NCBI GenBank assembly: GCA_944388965.1 | Contig: CALXKL010000006.1 | Coordinates: 62,001-126,000 of the forward strand | Reading direction: 5' to 3' | Origin: an uncultured Spirochaetales bacterium | GTDB lineage: Bacteria; Spirochaetota; Spirochaetia; Sphaerochaetales; Sphaerochaetaceae | Length of the DNA stretch: 64,000 nucleotides | Shown: piece after piece, positions 7,978 to 22,036 of the stretch | Numbering within the stretch: position 1 is the stretch's first letter | Layout of the letters: every line of letters begins with the position of its first letter | Made by a program: the position numbers and the translations under genes | Notes under the pieces: model-generated | What the model was told of the DNA's origin: nothing | The model's input: the letters and a program-made list of their open reading frames with translations, nothing else | The model's database searches: none

Positions 7978-8028
7978 GGCAAGAGAGCCAGCGTCATGAC
8001 ATATGGGCCATGCCCTAGACCGTATTGT

Positions 8029-8562
8029 TCATCGCGCAATCAGATCATATAAGGTCTGCTTATCGGATGTGATTGCCGAATAGTGGTGCAACACTTCTAC
8101 AAGTTCATCTACATCCTTGAAGAACGAGATGAATTCGCCTTGGTTCTTCCTGTAACCATACTTCAGTCTGCAGAACACGCTCGGCTTTATCCTGGATTTC
8201 ACCTTGCAGAACTCTTCATAGTCGCCATTCTTCAAGATAAGCAGAATTTCGATTTCAGGCCTTGTCGTCAATGTGACGACATCGAATCTGTCCCGGAAAA
8301 GCCTGTCAAGCCGGAAACTCTCCTGTCTTGAGTCGAGAATGCGCAGGATTACAAGAGGCCGGGCATAGTCCAATGACAGGAACTTCTCCTGGACATCAGC
8401 AGCAGTCATACGACGGTGGACCTTTCTGCCAACCAGGTCTTCACGGGAGAACTGAAGGCACCCGGTGTCAACAAGAGTGTCGACGATTTCCATTTCGGCA
8501 CCGCCTTCGACGAGGCAGAGCACATATTTGCCTTCGAAGGTCAACCGGAGATTCTTCTGCAC
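8029..8562 (-). CDS. TOPRIM-like nuclease partner of the upstream AAA ATPase (RloB/AbiLii/AriB-like)
   Basis: A 177-residue protein with faint TOPRIM features: a hydrophobic strand ending in acidic VEGGAE (residues 18-23), a second strand ending in ILDSR (75-79), then TRPEIEILLI, which resembles the P-x-E-x-W-LL block of RloB-like proteins. It starts at GTG 8562, with AAAGGA six bases upstream, and overlaps the ATPase gene by 22 bases, so the two are almost certainly co-translated. The ATPase + TOPRIM order is that of AbiL, RloAB and PARIS phage-defence pairs. Local base composition is poorer in G+C than the flanks. Function is inferred; the family was not confirmed by search. Confidence 0.6.
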   Translation of the reverse strand: MQKNLRLTFEGKYVLCLVEGGAEMEIVDTLVDTGCLQFSREDLVGRKVHRRMTAADVQEKFLSLDYARPLVILRILDSRQESFRLDRLFRDRFDVVTLTTRPEIEILLILKNGDYEEFCKVKSRIKPSVFCRLKYGYRKNQGEFISFFKDVDELVEVLHHYSAITSDKQTLYDLIAR

Positions 8563-9674
8563 ATGAAATCCTTTACGGCCTGCACATCCTCATATGAAGG
8601 CGCCGTCCCTTCGATGAGATTCGACAGAAGCACTTCGCTCTTTCTCACGTCGTTTCTTCCAATTACATCAGAATAACGGACCGTAGAGCACCCTCCGTCC
8701 CTGCTCTTGCGCATGACATAGATGTTGTCCTTTCTCTTGACGGAATCGACGATCTCCGCGTAATGGGTCGAGAACACAAGGACTGCTCCCTTTGTATTCA
8801 CTTCGCCATCCTGGAAGAAGTCTATTAGAAGCTGGACAAGGCGCTTGTTCAGATTGTCCTCGATCTCGTCGACCAGGAGGTATCCGCCACCAGCAAGGAC
8901 ATCGGCGGCGACATGAAAGAGCTGAGTCCCTTTTATCGTGCCGGATGACAGCAGATCGGATATCCGATCATCCCTGACACGTCTTGCCGATCCATCATTG
9001 TTGAACCGGACACGGACCATGCCATCTTCTAGGCATACCTCGTCCAGAGACCGGTCAAAGACATGAAGATACGCCGGCTCGATTGCACCATCGAGAAAGG
9101 AGAACCTCTCGCACAGATGAGAGAGGACGCCGGATATCGGACAGCTTGGGGCCGTCAGTGCCATGACTATGCTGTCATCGTCTTTCATGAATCCCCTCAG
9201 CTGAGAAACGAGATCCATTCTGGAATGGATGAGCATGTCTTCGGAATACTCAAACAGTCTGGCCCTGCTCCTCACAAGACTCATTCGCTTACCATAGAGT
9301 CTCTCATCAGCATATACGAGCCTGTCTCCATTCGAGGTGAACTCCGACTCCAACCTGTAGAACATCCCATCCTGGAAGAAGTCGACGACCATGATCGAAC
9401 CGCGGGAAAGGAACTGCGGAGCAGAAGGAATCTGGTCAAGGCTCAACCTGCTGGCAACTATCGACAAGGCCAGGTCGACAAGACGCAGAGCGCTTGTCTT
9501 GCCGGCTGCATTGATACCCACAAGTGCAACGATGTTCTGGGAACTCACGACATTTGTCACACTTGAGACATGCTGACCTGCGACGACACGATCGCTGGCA
9601 GTGAAGTCGATGACGAATTCATCCGAGAAGACACTGATGTTCCTGAACTCCAGACGGAGAAGACGAAATGGCAT
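8541..9674 (-). CDS. AAA (ABC/SMC-like) ATPase of a putative defence pair
   Basis: A 377-residue ATPase of the AAA_15/AAA_21 (COG1106-like) type. Walker A GINAAGKT is at 53-60, an ABC-like signature LSSGT at 242-246, Walker B LLVDEIED near 266-273 and the H-loop STHYAEIVD near 302. Between Walker A and the signature is a helical insert, as in RloA/AbiLi/OLD proteins. ATG 9674 has AAGGA nine bases upstream. It overlaps the TOPRIM-like gene downstream. A perfect inverted repeat lies 40-70 bases upstream. Its composition and lone position between housekeeping genes suggest horizontal transfer. The likely role is sensing phage or damaged DNA and unleashing the partner nuclease; this is inference from architecture. 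Confidence 0.8.
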   Translation of the reverse strand: MPFRLLRLEFRNISVFSDEFVIDFTASDRVVAGQHVSSVTNVVSSQNIVALVGINAAGKTSALRLVDLALSIVASRLSLDQIPSAPQFLSRGSIMVVDFFQDGMFYRLESEFTSNGDRLVYADERLYGKRMSLVRSRARLFEYSEDMLIHSRMDLVSQLRGFMKDDDSIVMALTAPSCPISGVLSHLCERFSFLDGAIEPAYLHVFDRSLDEVCLEDGMVRVRFNNDGSARRVRDDRISDLLSSGTIKGTQLFHVAADVLAGGGYLLVDEIEDNLNKRLVQLLIDFFQDGEVNTKGAVLVFSTHYAEIVDSVKRKDNIYVMRKSRDGGCSTVRYSDVIGRNDVRKSEVLLSNLIEGTAPSYEDVQAVKDFMCRRISG

Positions 9675-9714
9675 GGGCGGACTTCCTTTTGGTTCACATC
9701 TTATCCCAAGAAAA

Positions 9715-9745
9715 CAGATTTGACCAGATTATTTGTTCAAATCTG
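9715..9745. promoter_or_regulatory. Perfect 9-bp inverted repeat upstream of the ATPase/TOPRIM operon
   Basis: CAGATTTGA (9715-9723) and TCAAATCTG (9737-9745) are separated by 13 bases, a centre-to-centre distance of 22 bp or about two helical turns. The centre also carries CCAGATTA. It may be an operator of the leftward ATPase/TOPRIM genes. No regulator gene adjoins it. Confidence 0.45.
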
Positions 9746-9899
9746 ATGATAAACTGAAATATCAGCATTATTACCACAGTTTCGGCGTTGTTTTTCTACC
9801 GTAATATGATAGTAGAACGCGAACCAGAAACGAACTGCCGTGCAGTCATACATCCCTTACGGCAGCCGTTGTTTCAGCAAAATGGCCTGCAGAGGATTG

Positions 9900-11279
9900 T
9901 CATCTCGAAAAATCGCGATAATCCTCCGCAAACGGGAAGGGACGCAAGGCGCTTATGAAACCGACGATGTCACCAAGCGAATAACCCCCATCGCGAATAG
10001 TATCAAGCGACGGACCTCCGCAGCTTCGCTCCAGATAGCACCATAGTGGACTGCCCGAATCCCCGTCATAGTCACCGTTTCTGAAGAGGTAGTACTCGTA
10101 TTCAAGCGCTACAGGATAGTAGAGGGTATTTCCATCTTCAGACAACTCGAACCAGAAGAACCCATATGTTTTGTTCTTCAGATTCTCATTCTCCCGCTGG
10201 GACTTGACCCTTTCCCAGGAGACTCCACGTGGCACATCTGAAATGTCGCCATCGAACATGATTTGCCCAGGCTTGTAGAAGAATTCCTCATAGCCCGCAA
10301 GGAAAGTACCTTCGGCCTTCGGCTCAGTGTCATCTTCCTTGTATTTATCAACATCCGGAATCGGCAGCTGCCCGGCTTCGATCAGAGCGTTGATGACTGT
10401 GACATAATCATTCATCCTGGCTGCCTTCATTTCGCTGATGTTGAAGTACGTGTCCATGTACTTCCAGAATGCCTTGTCCGTAAGTCCGTTCCAATTATCG
10501 TATACCCTAAAGGCATCAAAGAGCTCCATTGGACAGAAGAGCGTCCAGTTTTCATCCAGGTAGAAGCCGTACTGGATCACGTCCTTGTATTCGGATCCTC
10601 CCTGGTTTGCGAAAGGCCCCTGGCTCTGCCAGGCGATCTCAAGCCTTCCCAATGTCCCCGTCAGAGGCTGGTCATGATGGTTGTCATATCTGATGAAGAA
10701 AAGATCTCCATCTTTGTGTTCCGGAATGACGATGGAACTTATATCCTCGTTGGAGTACTGAGACTTCCAGTCTCCGGTGACATCCGAAGCGGAAGGAATC
10801 GGCAACAGCGACCCCTTCCTGTCCAGCAGCAGGTCAAGAGCATACTCGTAGTCGTTTCTGATCTCCTTCATGCCCAGGCCGAAGTAGACGGACATGTACC
10901 ACCAGAACGGATTGCCGGTATCTGGTCTGAAGCCTCCTCCTTCCTCATAGACGGTCTGAATGTATGGCGGAATGTAGAGGATGTAGTTGTACTTCATTCC
11001 ATCTCCGTTCGTCTGGATCTCGCCATCAACAAGATACTCGACATAGAACGTGTCCGGATCGTCTTCGTTCAGCTGGAGCAGGACGCCGACGATCTCCTCA
11101 CCGACGACATATGAACTGCGTGCTGAACTAGAGGCAGCCCTTCCCGACCCTATTCTGTCCACGTTGCTTTCGACAGTGTAGCCGGAAGCAGAACCGGTTG
11201 ACGGCGTGTCCGCGGACGGGTCGCAGGAACAGACGAGCACCAGAACAATCAACGACAGAACAATGAGAACCCTCTTCAT
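9900..11279 (-). CDS. Lipoprotein built of three divergent repeats, unknown function
   Basis: A 459-residue secreted lipoprotein. The signal peptide is MKRVLIVLSLIVLVLVCSC with the probable lipidated cysteine at 19, a relaxed spirochaete-type lipobox. Three related units of about 130 residues follow. Each ends in an aromatic helix block: NPFWWYMSVYF, then DKAFWKYMDTYF, then SPLWCYLERS. Each block is followed by a helix, and in the first two by LPIP. The first half of each unit is rich in Tyr/Trp and acidic residues (beta-like). ATG 11279 has AGAGGGA upstream; the frame could begin 7 codons earlier at 11300. It precedes tRNA-Val and stands alone. No family is recognised. Confidence 0.75.
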   Translation of the reverse strand: MKRVLIVLSLIVLVLVCSCDPSADTPSTGSASGYTVESNVDRIGSGRAASSSARSSYVVGEEIVGVLLQLNEDDPDTFYVEYLVDGEIQTNGDGMKYNYILYIPPYIQTVYEEGGGFRPDTGNPFWWYMSVYFGLGMKEIRNDYEYALDLLLDRKGSLLPIPSASDVTGDWKSQYSNEDISSIVIPEHKDGDLFFIRYDNHHDQPLTGTLGRLEIAWQSQGPFANQGGSEYKDVIQYGFYLDENWTLFCPMELFDAFRVYDNWNGLTDKAFWKYMDTYFNISEMKAARMNDYVTVINALIEAGQLPIPDVDKYKEDDTEPKAEGTFLAGYEEFFYKPGQIMFDGDISDVPRGVSWERVKSQRENENLKNKTYGFFWFELSEDGNTLYYPVALEYEYYLFRNGDYDGDSGSPLWCYLERSCGGPSLDTIRDGGYSLGDIVGFISALRPFPFAEDYRDFSR

Positions 11280-11351
11280 ATCATTTCCCTCTGAGCTCAC
11301 GATACAACCGGATTCACGGGGGGGGCAATAGTCCGATGGCCCCTGTATATG

Positions 11352-18261: not shown

Positions 18262-19749
18262 TCAGATATCTATCCCAAGTCCTTTGACGACGGAAACCAT
18301 GTACCGCTGGTTTAACCAGAAGGATTGCTTAGTCATCCAGTCTCCGTTTGGTAGCTTGAATGCAAACTCTGGACCGGCCTTGTAATTATTGGCGTAAACA
18401 TGTCCCTTGATTTCGTGATACGAGTATTTCGAGTGAGGGCGGACATGAGCAATCGACCCAGGAATTCCCATGCCAGGCAAGTCGTTTTCTATACGCACGC
18501 TACCATTGTTTAGAAATGTTGGAATGAGTGTGACTCCATTTGTCAGCTTGGCCTTTGTTCGCAACCAGCAATCCTGTAAGCCTCCGTAAATGTCTGTCTC
18601 GCTCATGGCCCAGAACCCGGATCCCAGGAAACGGCATACTTCGGAACCATCCACCTTCTCTTTTCGCCAAATCGACAACAGGAACCTTGTCCCTTCAAAG
18701 TAGTCACAAAGGGCGGAATTCTCAAAAGAATCTTCATCGAAGACGCTTAGGAAATCTGATACGGGAAGAGATATGGACTCTTTCAAGGTTCCGTTCTCCT
18801 CAAAACGGATAGTCTTCAGAACAATATTCGCCTTCAGGAACTCTTCGCATCGGTTGGAACGGACACCAAGCATGCGGAAAGAAAGATTTGACCATGAACT
18901 CCTTGCCGAAATCTCATATCCGACTTGCTCAGCTATTTCAATGTCGGTCATTCCGATGAATCTTGACATCCGCTTGAGTGCTACAGTCTCAAAATCCCCA
19001 CCTATCCTCTCCGCACGAACATAAGTGTCGCGGTCGTTCATGATGTAATTGTTCTGCAGATAAGTCATATATGATGTCTTCAGACAAAAGGCCCGAGGTT
19101 TGGCCAAGGCAAACGGAGGATACCCTTGTCGTTTCATGGAAGAACCGTCTGCACCTTTGGTACAGGCTCCCAGATATTTCGTCATAGCCTCCGAAAGCTC
19201 GTTCGCCCTTCCCTGATAGACATAAGACATGATATCCGTCCAGTCCTGGCGGATTGTGGGCAAGTCTTCTGCTGGAACTGTGAACATAGTGACTTTGCAG
19301 AACGGAAAATCACCTCGATCTAGTCCCTTATGTTCGGATGGCCGCTTGTAGACACATAAAAGAATCCTTGCAAGCTTCTGCGCCAAGTGCGTCTCTTCGA
19401 ATCGCTTGTTCCGACCTTCAATCTCATTGTCCTTGGGCTGATAACTGATCATCGTTATGACAAGTCTCTCTCCAGCCTTCCACTTCTGCGTCGTAGTCTC
19501 TTCAACAGGAGTCGCTTTCAGTTCGACACCAAGCTCCTTGAAATCCGGACTTTGATTGTTGTTGACCTTCAAACCAAGCGCCTCTTCGACGATATTTCCA
19601 ATATTCCCCTTGTGGTTGATTGACTCCAGAAGCTTGCTTGCTTTTTCCGCATCCGGCGCATATGAAGCAACTTCACGCACCGTCTCTCCCAGAATCAGAC
19701 TGCGTACTGAAAACTCCAATGCTTCGACAGACGTCAAATCGACTTTCAC
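18262..19749 (-). CDS. Sau3AI-like type II restriction endonuclease (MutH fold)
   Basis: A 495-residue nuclease, close to Sau3AI in length (about 490). The MutH-type catalytic core is clear near the N-terminus: KGNIGNIVEEALGL with Glu 55, SPDF with Asp 69, and GVELKATP with Glu 76 and Lys 78, giving the D-x6-E-x-K spacing of MutH. In Sau3AI the C-terminal half is a second, inactive MutH-like domain used as an allosteric site, and the length here allows the same. GTG 19749 follows GGGGAGG. Sau3AI cuts GATC; that specificity is likely but not certain here. The cognate C5 methylase lies immediately upstream, in the same direction. Lower G+C than the flanks suggests transfer. Confidence 0.88.
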   Translation of the reverse strand: MKVDLTSVEALEFSVRSLILGETVREVASYAPDAEKASKLLESINHKGNIGNIVEEALGLKVNNNQSPDFKELGVELKATPVEETTTQKWKAGERLVITMISYQPKDNEIEGRNKRFEETHLAQKLARILLCVYKRPSEHKGLDRGDFPFCKVTMFTVPAEDLPTIRQDWTDIMSYVYQGRANELSEAMTKYLGACTKGADGSSMKRQGYPPFALAKPRAFCLKTSYMTYLQNNYIMNDRDTYVRAERIGGDFETVALKRMSRFIGMTDIEIAEQVGYEISARSSWSNLSFRMLGVRSNRCEEFLKANIVLKTIRFEENGTLKESISLPVSDFLSVFDEDSFENSALCDYFEGTRFLLSIWRKEKVDGSEVCRFLGSGFWAMSETDIYGGLQDCWLRTKAKLTNGVTLIPTFLNNGSVRIENDLPGMGIPGSIAHVRPHSKYSYHEIKGHVYANNYKAGPEFAFKLPNGDWMTKQSFWLNQRYMVSVVKGLGIDI

Positions 19750-19866
19750 CCGGTAGCCTCCCCATGTTCACAAGTAGACTACCACAATCAGGCAAACACT
19801 ACCAAATCAGAATTTGATAAAACCCATATCTCAGCATGAAATAGCGACAGCGTAGGTTTTAGGATA

Positions 19867-21078
19867 TCAGTCTTTGATTTCCTGGATGCGTCTGCCCATG
19901 ATTGCAATCAGGCCAACAACAAGAGCGTTTCCCATGCAGAAATACCTGAAATTCTGAGGCATGCCTGTGTTGGTCCAGTTATCAGGAAAACCATCAAGCC
20001 TTTCGCATTCCACTGGTGTAAGCAGCCTGAGTCTACCTGTCTCCGGATCCTTTACCACATGAGTCGACCTGTTCTTGGAGGATTCCCCTGTCAGCATTGT
20101 CCGACTGGGCTTATCCAGGTAATCGGGATAGGCTATCGGGCCTTCGGAATAGTTATACTCATGTCCATTTGCAGACACGCGCTTCTCCTTCTTAGCACCC
20201 TTCATGTAGGCCCATTTGGGCTCATCTTCCGCCTTTATGTAGAAGCTTTCATCCACATTGTGCTCAAGGCACTCCCCAAGCGTCTTGCGAGGACCGTCAT
20301 AGACAGCCTCGACACGCAGAGTCTGGATTGTGGATCCAATGCAATAGCCGCTGTTCTCGAATGCGGCGTGGAATCTGTCGGAAACGGCCTGGATATCATC
20401 TGGAATTTCTACTGTTTCGACACGGCAGATTTCCTCATATCGTCTGCAATGGAAAGCCGGAGCAAAGAAACCATCCTTCAGAAGAATCTCATCTCCCGTC
20501 TTCCTACCATAAAGCTTCTTCTGAATGTTCTTGTCCCTCGTGGCGAAGATGAAAGTCCTTCTTCTCCTCTGTGGGAAGCCATAGTCGGCAGCGTTGATGA
20601 CACGCCATTCTATGGAATAGCCTAGAGAGGAAAGACAGGCCAGGATGATACCGAAATCACGACCACGCTGCTTTGCAGGCGATTTGAGGAGCCGGTCCAC
20701 GTTTTCAAGCAGAATGAATCTCGGCCTCTTGTCTGTAGCGATTCTGTAGATTTCCCACCACAGCACACCTTTTTTCCCTTGGATGCCCTTGGAGTTTATC
20801 AGAGTTGATGCGACGGAATAGTCCTGACATGGAAAACCACCCACAAGAAGCTCATGGCCGGGGATGTCCTTGCTGTCGACGGTTGCGACATCGACGTTGA
20901 GGTTCGTGCTTTCAGGGAAGTGTTCATTGTAGCAATCGAATGCCCACTGGCTTTTCTTGCCAGGCTCCCACTGGTTTGCAAATATGGTCTTCCATCCGGA
21001 CTCGCCAAGCCCCAGATTGAACCCCCCTACTCCAGCAAAGAGCTCCACTACGGTATTTTCTTGAACCTTCGTCGCCAT
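19867..21078 (-). CDS. DNA (cytosine-5) methyltransferase of the R-M system
   Basis: A 403-residue C5-cytosine methylase that should protect host DNA from the Sau3AI-like enzyme. All main motifs are present in order: I VELFAGVGGFNLGL (11-24), IV GGFPCQDYS with catalytic Cys 84, VI ENVDRL (125-130), VIII QRRRRTFIFA (170-179) and the C-terminal X GNALVVGL. The target-recognition region lies between about 215 and 330. Its size matches M.Sau3AI-type enzymes. ATG 21078 has a weak AAGGG site. The gene precedes the nuclease on the same strand with a 117-base gap and is divergent from the HNH gene. Confidence 0.92.
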   Translation of the reverse strand: MATKVQENTVVELFAGVGGFNLGLGESGWKTIFANQWEPGKKSQWAFDCYNEHFPESTNLNVDVATVDSKDIPGHELLVGGFPCQDYSVASTLINSKGIQGKKGVLWWEIYRIATDKRPRFILLENVDRLLKSPAKQRGRDFGIILACLSSLGYSIEWRVINAADYGFPQRRRRTFIFATRDKNIQKKLYGRKTGDEILLKDGFFAPAFHCRRYEEICRVETVEIPDDIQAVSDRFHAAFENSGYCIGSTIQTLRVEAVYDGPRKTLGECLEHNVDESFYIKAEDEPKWAYMKGAKKEKRVSANGHEYNYSEGPIAYPDYLDKPSRTMLTGESSKNRSTHVVKDPETGRLRLLTPVECERLDGFPDNWTNTGMPQNFRYFCMGNALVVGLIAIMGRRIQEIKD

Positions 21079-21235
21079 ATTTTCTGTACCCTTACATCAC
21101 AATCTTAGTTGAAAAGAACCATCTTGAAAAGATCGATTCGGAGCTTAGCAGAAAAAAGATTTTCGATCAATCGCACCAGCCACTAGTCTGGAAGACTGTC
21201 GACTTGCCTGGTATCCTGGAGACAAGTATACGGAA

Positions 21236-22036
21236 ATGAGCAGAAACCCGAACTGGACAGAAGAGGAACTCATACTGGCATTATGTCTTTACTATGAGCT
21301 TCCATCCGGACAGCATCATCAGAGCAATAAGGAAGTCGAGAATCTTGCAACAAAGCTTGGGAGAAGAACGCCTAGTTCCGTTGCCTATAAGCTCGGAAAT
21401 TTTAAATCGCTGGATGACCGTTATACAGGAAAAGGCATGACTAATCATTCCAAGCAGGATGAAAACATTTGGAACAAGTACCTTGACCATCCTGCCGAAC
21501 TGTTCGAAAGACGCAATCAAATTCTAGCCCGACACCATGTCGACAGTGCTTCCGAACCGTCTGCGGACTATTGCCCTCTTCCCGATTCGGAGTTAGACAA
21601 GCTTGTCCATGAGATTGATTTCAGTGTCGAAGACAGAAAGAAACTACAGAACTGGCGAGAGAGCCAATGGGCTTTCCGCCTGTCTCTACTCAAAGGCTAT
21701 GATTCACATTGCTGCCTTTCGGGGATAAGCAACACAGACTTTCTGGTAGCATCCCACATTGTCCCTTGGAGCATCGACAAGGAGAACAGGCTCAATCCAA
21801 GAAACGGACTGTTGCTGAACGTGTTCCTAGACAAGGCCTTTGACAAAGGATATATCTCCATACGCAGCAACGACTACAAAGTACTGGTGAGCCCTTCGAT
21901 AAGAGACGAGAAGCTGAAGTCGCAACTAGTACGTTATGAAGGGCAGACCATTGCATTACCACGAAACCCAGCAAGAAGGCCCGACAACAGGTTCCTCGAA
22001 TACCACAATGATGTAATATTCCGTCATCACATTTGA
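21236..22036 (+). CDS. HNH endonuclease with N-terminal SANT/Myb-like domain
   Basis: A 266-residue probable restriction-type nuclease. The N-terminal 60 residues (NWTEEELILALCLYYELPSG and RTPSSVAYKLGNF) resemble the DNA-binding module common in HNH restriction-like proteins. The C-terminal half is an HNH_2 nuclease: CLSGISNTDFLVASHIVPW with His 174, RLNPRNGLLL with Asn 190, and LDKAFDKGYIS. It is divergent from the methylase by 157 bases, so one intergenic region may control both. A second nuclease next to a complete Sau3AI-like pair is unusual: it may back up the R-M system or act on differently modified DNA. Confidence 0.85.
   Translation: MSRNPNWTEEELILALCLYYELPSGQHHQSNKEVENLATKLGRRTPSSVAYKLGNFKSLDDRYTGKGMTNHSKQDENIWNKYLDHPAELFERRNQILARHHVDSASEPSADYCPLPDSELDKLVHEIDFSVEDRKKLQNWRESQWAFRLSLLKGYDSHCCLSGISNTDFLVASHIVPWSIDKENRLNPRNGLLLNVFLDKAFDKGYISIRSNDYKVLVSPSIRDEKLKSQLVRYEGQTIALPRNPARRPDNRFLEYHNDVIFRHHI

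Follow-up and report, generated by a model that had tools for sequence, protein, structure and literature searches.

AAA-TOPRIM gene pairs from other bacteria with the architecture treated here act as toxin–antitoxin pairs in E. coli, where the TOPRIM protein is toxic and is neutralised by the ATPase, and AbiL, a system of this architecture, is abortive (PMC10440598). The NetFlax authors tied AbiLii to RloB and to OLD_TOPRIM (PMC10440598). In the PARIS system, AriA sequesters AriB, a TOPRIM tRNase, until a trigger frees it (PMC12409363, PMC11455837). For the OLD nucleases, the two-metal site of BpOLD consists of E400, D455, and D457 for metal A and E404, T506, and E508 for metal B (PMC6755086); TsOLD is treated in PMC7049728.

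The window, that is, the whole stretch of 64,000 nucleotides analysed from an uncultured Spirochaetales bacterium, carries a pair of genes that is probably a two-gene anti-phage module of the toxin–antitoxin-like, abortive-infection type, similar to AbiL, RloAB, and PARIS and forming a separate subfamily. The pair and its surroundings are composed as follows.

8029..8562, minus strand: gene for a divergent TOPRIM-like protein of 177 aa, the proposed nuclease effector (AlphaFold, PDB matches, invariant metal-site residues); start codon GTG
8541..9674, minus strand: gene for an ABC-type ATPase of 377 aa, AbiLi/RloA-like, proposed to act as a sensor and to hold the partner in check (PADLOC, Pfam, AlphaFold); start codon ATG
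8541..8562, minus strand: overlap of the two genes, 22 bp; tight coupling is general across the family
7989..11321, unstranded: low-GC cassette, GC 0.506, missing from congener G002

The two overlapping genes noticed in the sequence-only reading were thus confirmed as open reading frames, and the overlap of 22 bp implies co-translation. Both are real genes and not chance reading frames, since the partner is matched in length by about 100 homologues, which share invariant residues, and 97 of the 100 are encoded directly behind the same ATPase. No sigma-70 promoter for the ATPase was found in the gap upstream of its gene. The GC content of the pair is 0.51 against 0.59 on both flanks, in agreement with the low G+C noted earlier, and its GC3 is 0.615, the neighbouring genes ranging from 0.75 to 0.91; the low-GC unit is, however, larger than the pair, extending over about 7989-11321. 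In the congener G002, which is 97-98% identical on either side, 323 bp of unrelated sequence replaces 7989-11321, indicating that the low-GC block is a cassette beside tRNA-Val, which adjoins the site. The variable cassette also includes, upstream of the ATPase, a reading frame for a lipoprotein-like protein of 466 aa (9900-11300, minus strand).

The partner was carried by only six of the 393 genomes of the phylum, and the copies in two other congener species fall in a different deep clade, which shows that transfer has been frequent. This distribution bears on the reading of the pair as a nuclease that works with a Rad50-like protein in DNA repair or some other task of cell maintenance. The ATPase fold is of the Rad50/SMC type (see below), and an archaeal member of the OLD family, Cran1, has a role in the cell cycle (PMC12796447), but such a function is hard to reconcile with the patchy occurrence, the empty site in a near-identical congener, the pattern of horizontal transfer, and the carriage by phages, and we regard it as highly improbable. 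A housekeeping role was rejected because of the patchiness and the empty site.

The ATPase was best matched among PADLOC models by AbiLi (4e-33, 113 bits), the match to AriA being far weaker (9.7e-11), and in Pfam by AAA_21 (2.3e-10). The ATPases of eight relatives also matched AbiLi, at 1.7e-27 to 5.7e-37. The following motifs were identified, and all are conserved in the family.

9495..9518, minus strand: Walker A, G53-x-N-A-A-G-K59-T60; G, K, and T invariant
8928..8948, minus strand: ABC signature-like sequence, S243-S-G-T-I-K-G249; S243, S244, G245, T246, and G249 invariant
8865..8870, minus strand: Walker B, D269-E270; invariant
8763..8765, minus strand: H-loop, H304, within the motif STHY; invariant

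At Z 14-17, the AlphaFold model of the ATPase (pLDDT 85.6) resembles Rad50, PtuA, and the ATPases of retrons. Based on the profile matches, the invariant ABC motifs, and the structural matches of the model, the protein belongs with the ABC-type ATPases of the group that includes OLD, PtuA, and RloA. The earlier designation "AAA ATPase" therefore needs correction in that the protein is ABC/Rad50-like (AAA_21) and not an AAA+ ATPase.

The 177-aa partner gave no match to Pfam, PADLOC, NCBIfam, or PHROG models, and its sequence gave none among PDB sequences. Membership of the Pfam families DUF4276 and OLD-like_TOPRIM was rejected for lack of matches to the partner, a search of the present genome for DUF4276 having given no match at all and so carrying no weight, and the PADLOC model NsnC was unconvincing as a home, being matched by four of 42 members, at best at 0.0004 and over a central stretch only. 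The structure predicted by AlphaFold from 39 family rows had a pLDDT of 92.6, with strands and helices in parallel beta-alpha order. In a Foldseek search of this model against PDB, nothing significant was found, with no match at E < 1e-3. By VIA-align against PDB, ranks 1-4 were all C-terminal TOPRIM regions of OLD proteins, with Z 6.2-5.8, that is, below 8, over 139-145 aligned residues, the aligned length for most unrelated rows being about 80-100 residues; TsOLD and GajA were also included in the list. AriB was absent from it, an absence that carries no weight in either direction. In the viral structure library BFVD, an RloB-like phage protein took the second rank, and its probability of 0.63 was the highest of those shown. 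Comparison of the partner and RloB profiles was weak when local (0.8% probability), and when global gave P 0.005, the reversed controls giving 0.18-0.24; in the global alignment, the first motif and the last were in register. The partner thus probably has a TOPRIM-like fold of the OLD type, as judged from the moderate scores of the predicted model (Z ~6) together with the following motifs.

8494..8508, minus strand: motif I, E19-G-x-A-E23; E19 in 98/98 and E23 in 97/98 sequences; spacing equal to E400/E404 of BpOLD
8320..8334, minus strand: motif II, D77-S-R79-x-E81, a DxD with the second Asp replaced; D77 in 98/98
8248..8265, minus strand: motif III, T100-x-P-E-I-E105; T100 and E105 in 98/98; resembles S-N-P-C-F-E of RloB and T506/E508 of BpOLD

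In the model, E19 follows strand 1, D77 follows the long strand that comes next, and T100 and E105 follow the last strand. Among the 98 readable partner sequences, E19, G20, D77, T100, and E105 were invariant, E23 being replaced in a single sequence. As estimated from motif order and spacing, not from superposition of coordinates, equivalents of all the metal ligands of BpOLD except D457 are kept in the family, including the metal-B ligands E404, T506, and E508 (E23, T100, and E105). The motifs VEGGAE and ILDSR, which had been described as only loosely conserved, are accordingly family-invariant, with a single departure, DSR for DxD. At position 79 (n=98), R was found in 81 sequences, H in six, D in five, K in four, and E and P in one each; the present partner has D77-S-R79 in place of DxD, while DSD is retained in bifidobacterial members and DRD in locus L047.

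The proposal of a TOPRIM-like partner is thus supported by the top four PDB matches of the model, all of them OLD TOPRIM domains, and by the E..E / D / T..E set. The sequence-only reading was to be abandoned if the predicted structure lacked a TOPRIM fold or if the pair belonged clearly to a non-defence family; neither outcome arose, although the fold match is moderate (Z ~6). With AbiLi as the best model for the ATPase, and with OLD TOPRIM-like matches and the metal-site set for the partner, the architecture is of the AbiL/RloAB/PARIS type, as had been suggested.

Within this architecture, it is possible, though we consider it the less probable course, that the pair is a true but divergent AbiL/RloAB, the partner being an ordinary RloB/AbiLii protein missed by profile models. 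The AbiLi match of the ATPase and the motif order EGxxE - D - [ST]xPxxE, which is that of RloB, agree with such an assignment, and one of the 42 family members examined did give Pfam RloB (E 0.011). The AbiLii model of PADLOC, however, recognised RloB proteins of distant bacteria, and also one from the same genome, at 70-110 bits, but did not match this partner at E 10 nor any of the 42 members at E 1. The AbiLi model gave 297-337 bits for true RloA but 94-125 bits for the ATPases of this family. When 65 ATPases were placed in a tree, all 34 from this family grouped together in a single clade (100/99), separate from OLD and from 22 of the 23 RloA (99/99). In addition, the second Asp of DxD, invariant in RloB (D93), is mostly a basic residue here. 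The absence of any model match for the partner, the failure of AbiLii on 42/42 members, and the separate ATPase clade altogether favour the new subfamily that had been put forward as a possibility.

A total of 160 relatives of the partner were identified by the genome scan, of which 80 were kept; they originated from Bacillota, Spirochaetota, Actinomycetota, Fusobacteriota, Campylobacterota, Pseudomonadota, Synergistota, and one MAG labelled Muribaculaceae. Further copies were found on three plasmids and on nine viral contigs (IMG/VR, 9 loci). The homologues, plasmids and proviruses included, number about 100 from at least seven phyla. The phage records searched for the family gave no match. 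One plasmid member, of Ligilactobacillus (L090 8986-9528), carries the annotation "N-6 DNA methylase," which seems to be a misnomer. Linkage to the ATPase is near-obligatory: in 97 of 100 loci, the partner gene is immediately preceded by the ATPase gene in the same orientation, and the two mostly overlap or lie no more than 20 bp apart. The remaining three comprise a locus at a contig edge, a remnant in the present genome, and a pair split by an IS transposase gene. In the last case (genome G058, L169 1370-4895), the transposase gene lies between the ATPase and TOPRIM genes, and both reading frames are still open.

Because copies occur on plasmids and proviruses, the pair might be considered a toxin–antitoxin for plasmid or phage addiction, serving selfish stability without an anti-phage role, the more so as AAA-TOPRIM pairs behave as toxin–antitoxin in E. 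coli (PMC10440598). In the congener G011 (L005 1489-1614), moreover, the TOPRIM gene is shortened and the ATPase gene is not, which would be expected of a pair whose toxic component is the TOPRIM protein. Most family copies, however, were found on chromosomal or unassigned contigs, and the invariance of all the ABC motifs suggests a regulated sensor over a simple antitoxin. Addiction as the sole function is thus unlikely, and toxin–antitoxin behaviour and defence are not mutually exclusive.

In two proviruses, the pair is located between a similar late-regulator-like gene and packaging genes (terminase/portal), at L123 6776-8492 and L121 6770-8507, and its presence at the same spot in both suggests a cargo hotspot. 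The carriage beside packaging genes suggests that the pair is also used in phage–phage conflict. At other family loci, the neighbours include type IIG and type IV restriction, DRT, MADS, and DISARM-type proteins, while many family members sit among ordinary genes; these are observations on the family loci only.

Two further regions of the same genome were noted. On contig C17 (L167, G000:C17:24000-43999), the broken remnant of a second copy of the partner gene lies in a defence-like island, together with two RloA/RloB-type pairs, a PrimPol-helicase protein, and a pair of AAA and S8 peptidase proteins. In the window itself, about 9 kb from the pair, a second low-GC block (18262-22036) carries what on reading of the sequences is an apparent type II restriction-modification set: a Sau3AI/MutH-like protein of 495 aa, a C5 DNA methyltransferase of 403 aa, and an HNH-like protein of 266 aa.

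No phage or toxicity assay of any family member was found in the literature. For the abortive-infection module preferred here, we propose by analogy the scheme of restraint and release known from PARIS and from AAA-neutralised TOPRIM toxins. In the resting cell, the ABC-type ATPase would bind and restrain the small TOPRIM-like protein. The ATPase might then sense some sign of phage infection, and an ATP-dependent change or release would free the TOPRIM protein, which may cut nucleic acid, either tRNA or other RNA, or DNA, using two metal ions presumably held by E19, E23, D77, T100, and E105. Growth would thereby stop before the phage multiplies, leading to abortive infection.

A further reading, which we regard as rather doubtful, sets the family apart as a class of its own among two-gene OLD-like systems, responding to a phage trigger of its own. 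The basic residue in place of the second DxD aspartate would then reflect an altered chemistry or substrate, such as cleavage with one metal ion that is specific for RNA or tRNA. With its motifs nearly invariant and one metal ligand replaced, the family could be used to test directly how TOPRIM effectors choose between RNA and DNA. In addition, the pair is lacking as a system from the current defence catalogues: the AbiLi model picks up the ATPase only weakly, and no model picks up the effector, so that a caller requiring both AbiL genes would miss this widespread family.

Among the known systems, AbiL of Lactococcus (AbiLi and AbiLii) and RloA-RloB share with the present pair the order of an ATPase gene followed by a small TOPRIM-like gene, the AbiLi match, and the same order of three motifs, but the AbiLii and RloB models miss the partner, the ATPase clade is separate from RloA, and the partners are mostly of 172-186 aa, the RloB proteins taken for comparison having 185-256 aa. 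Since the partner is not recognised as an AbiLii/RloB-family protein, a defining feature of AbiL, the pair is not classed as AbiL, although it would work like AbiL. PARIS (AriA and AriB) likewise has the ABC ATPase and the TOPRIM protein as separate genes, and AriA matches weakly; PARIS proper was rejected based on the better match of the ATPase to AbiLi than to AriA and the absence of any AriB/DUF4435 match, in Pfam or PADLOC, among the 42 members. The OLD nucleases of classes 1 and 2 and GajA of Gabija are the best solved-structure matches of the partner and share the metal-site residues E, E/D, D, T/S, and E, but each of them is encoded as one polypeptide and has the complete DxD, while here two genes and DSR are found; the one-polypeptide ATPase-TOPRIM arrangement of OLD classes 1-3 is thus absent. 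In the NetFlax pair TOPRIM_OLD D60:AAA D29 of Streptococcus agalactiae 2603V/R, the TOPRIM_OLD toxin lies outside the RloB node and is neutralised by the AAA protein (PMC10440598), and by this description the pair could belong to the same family as the one described here.
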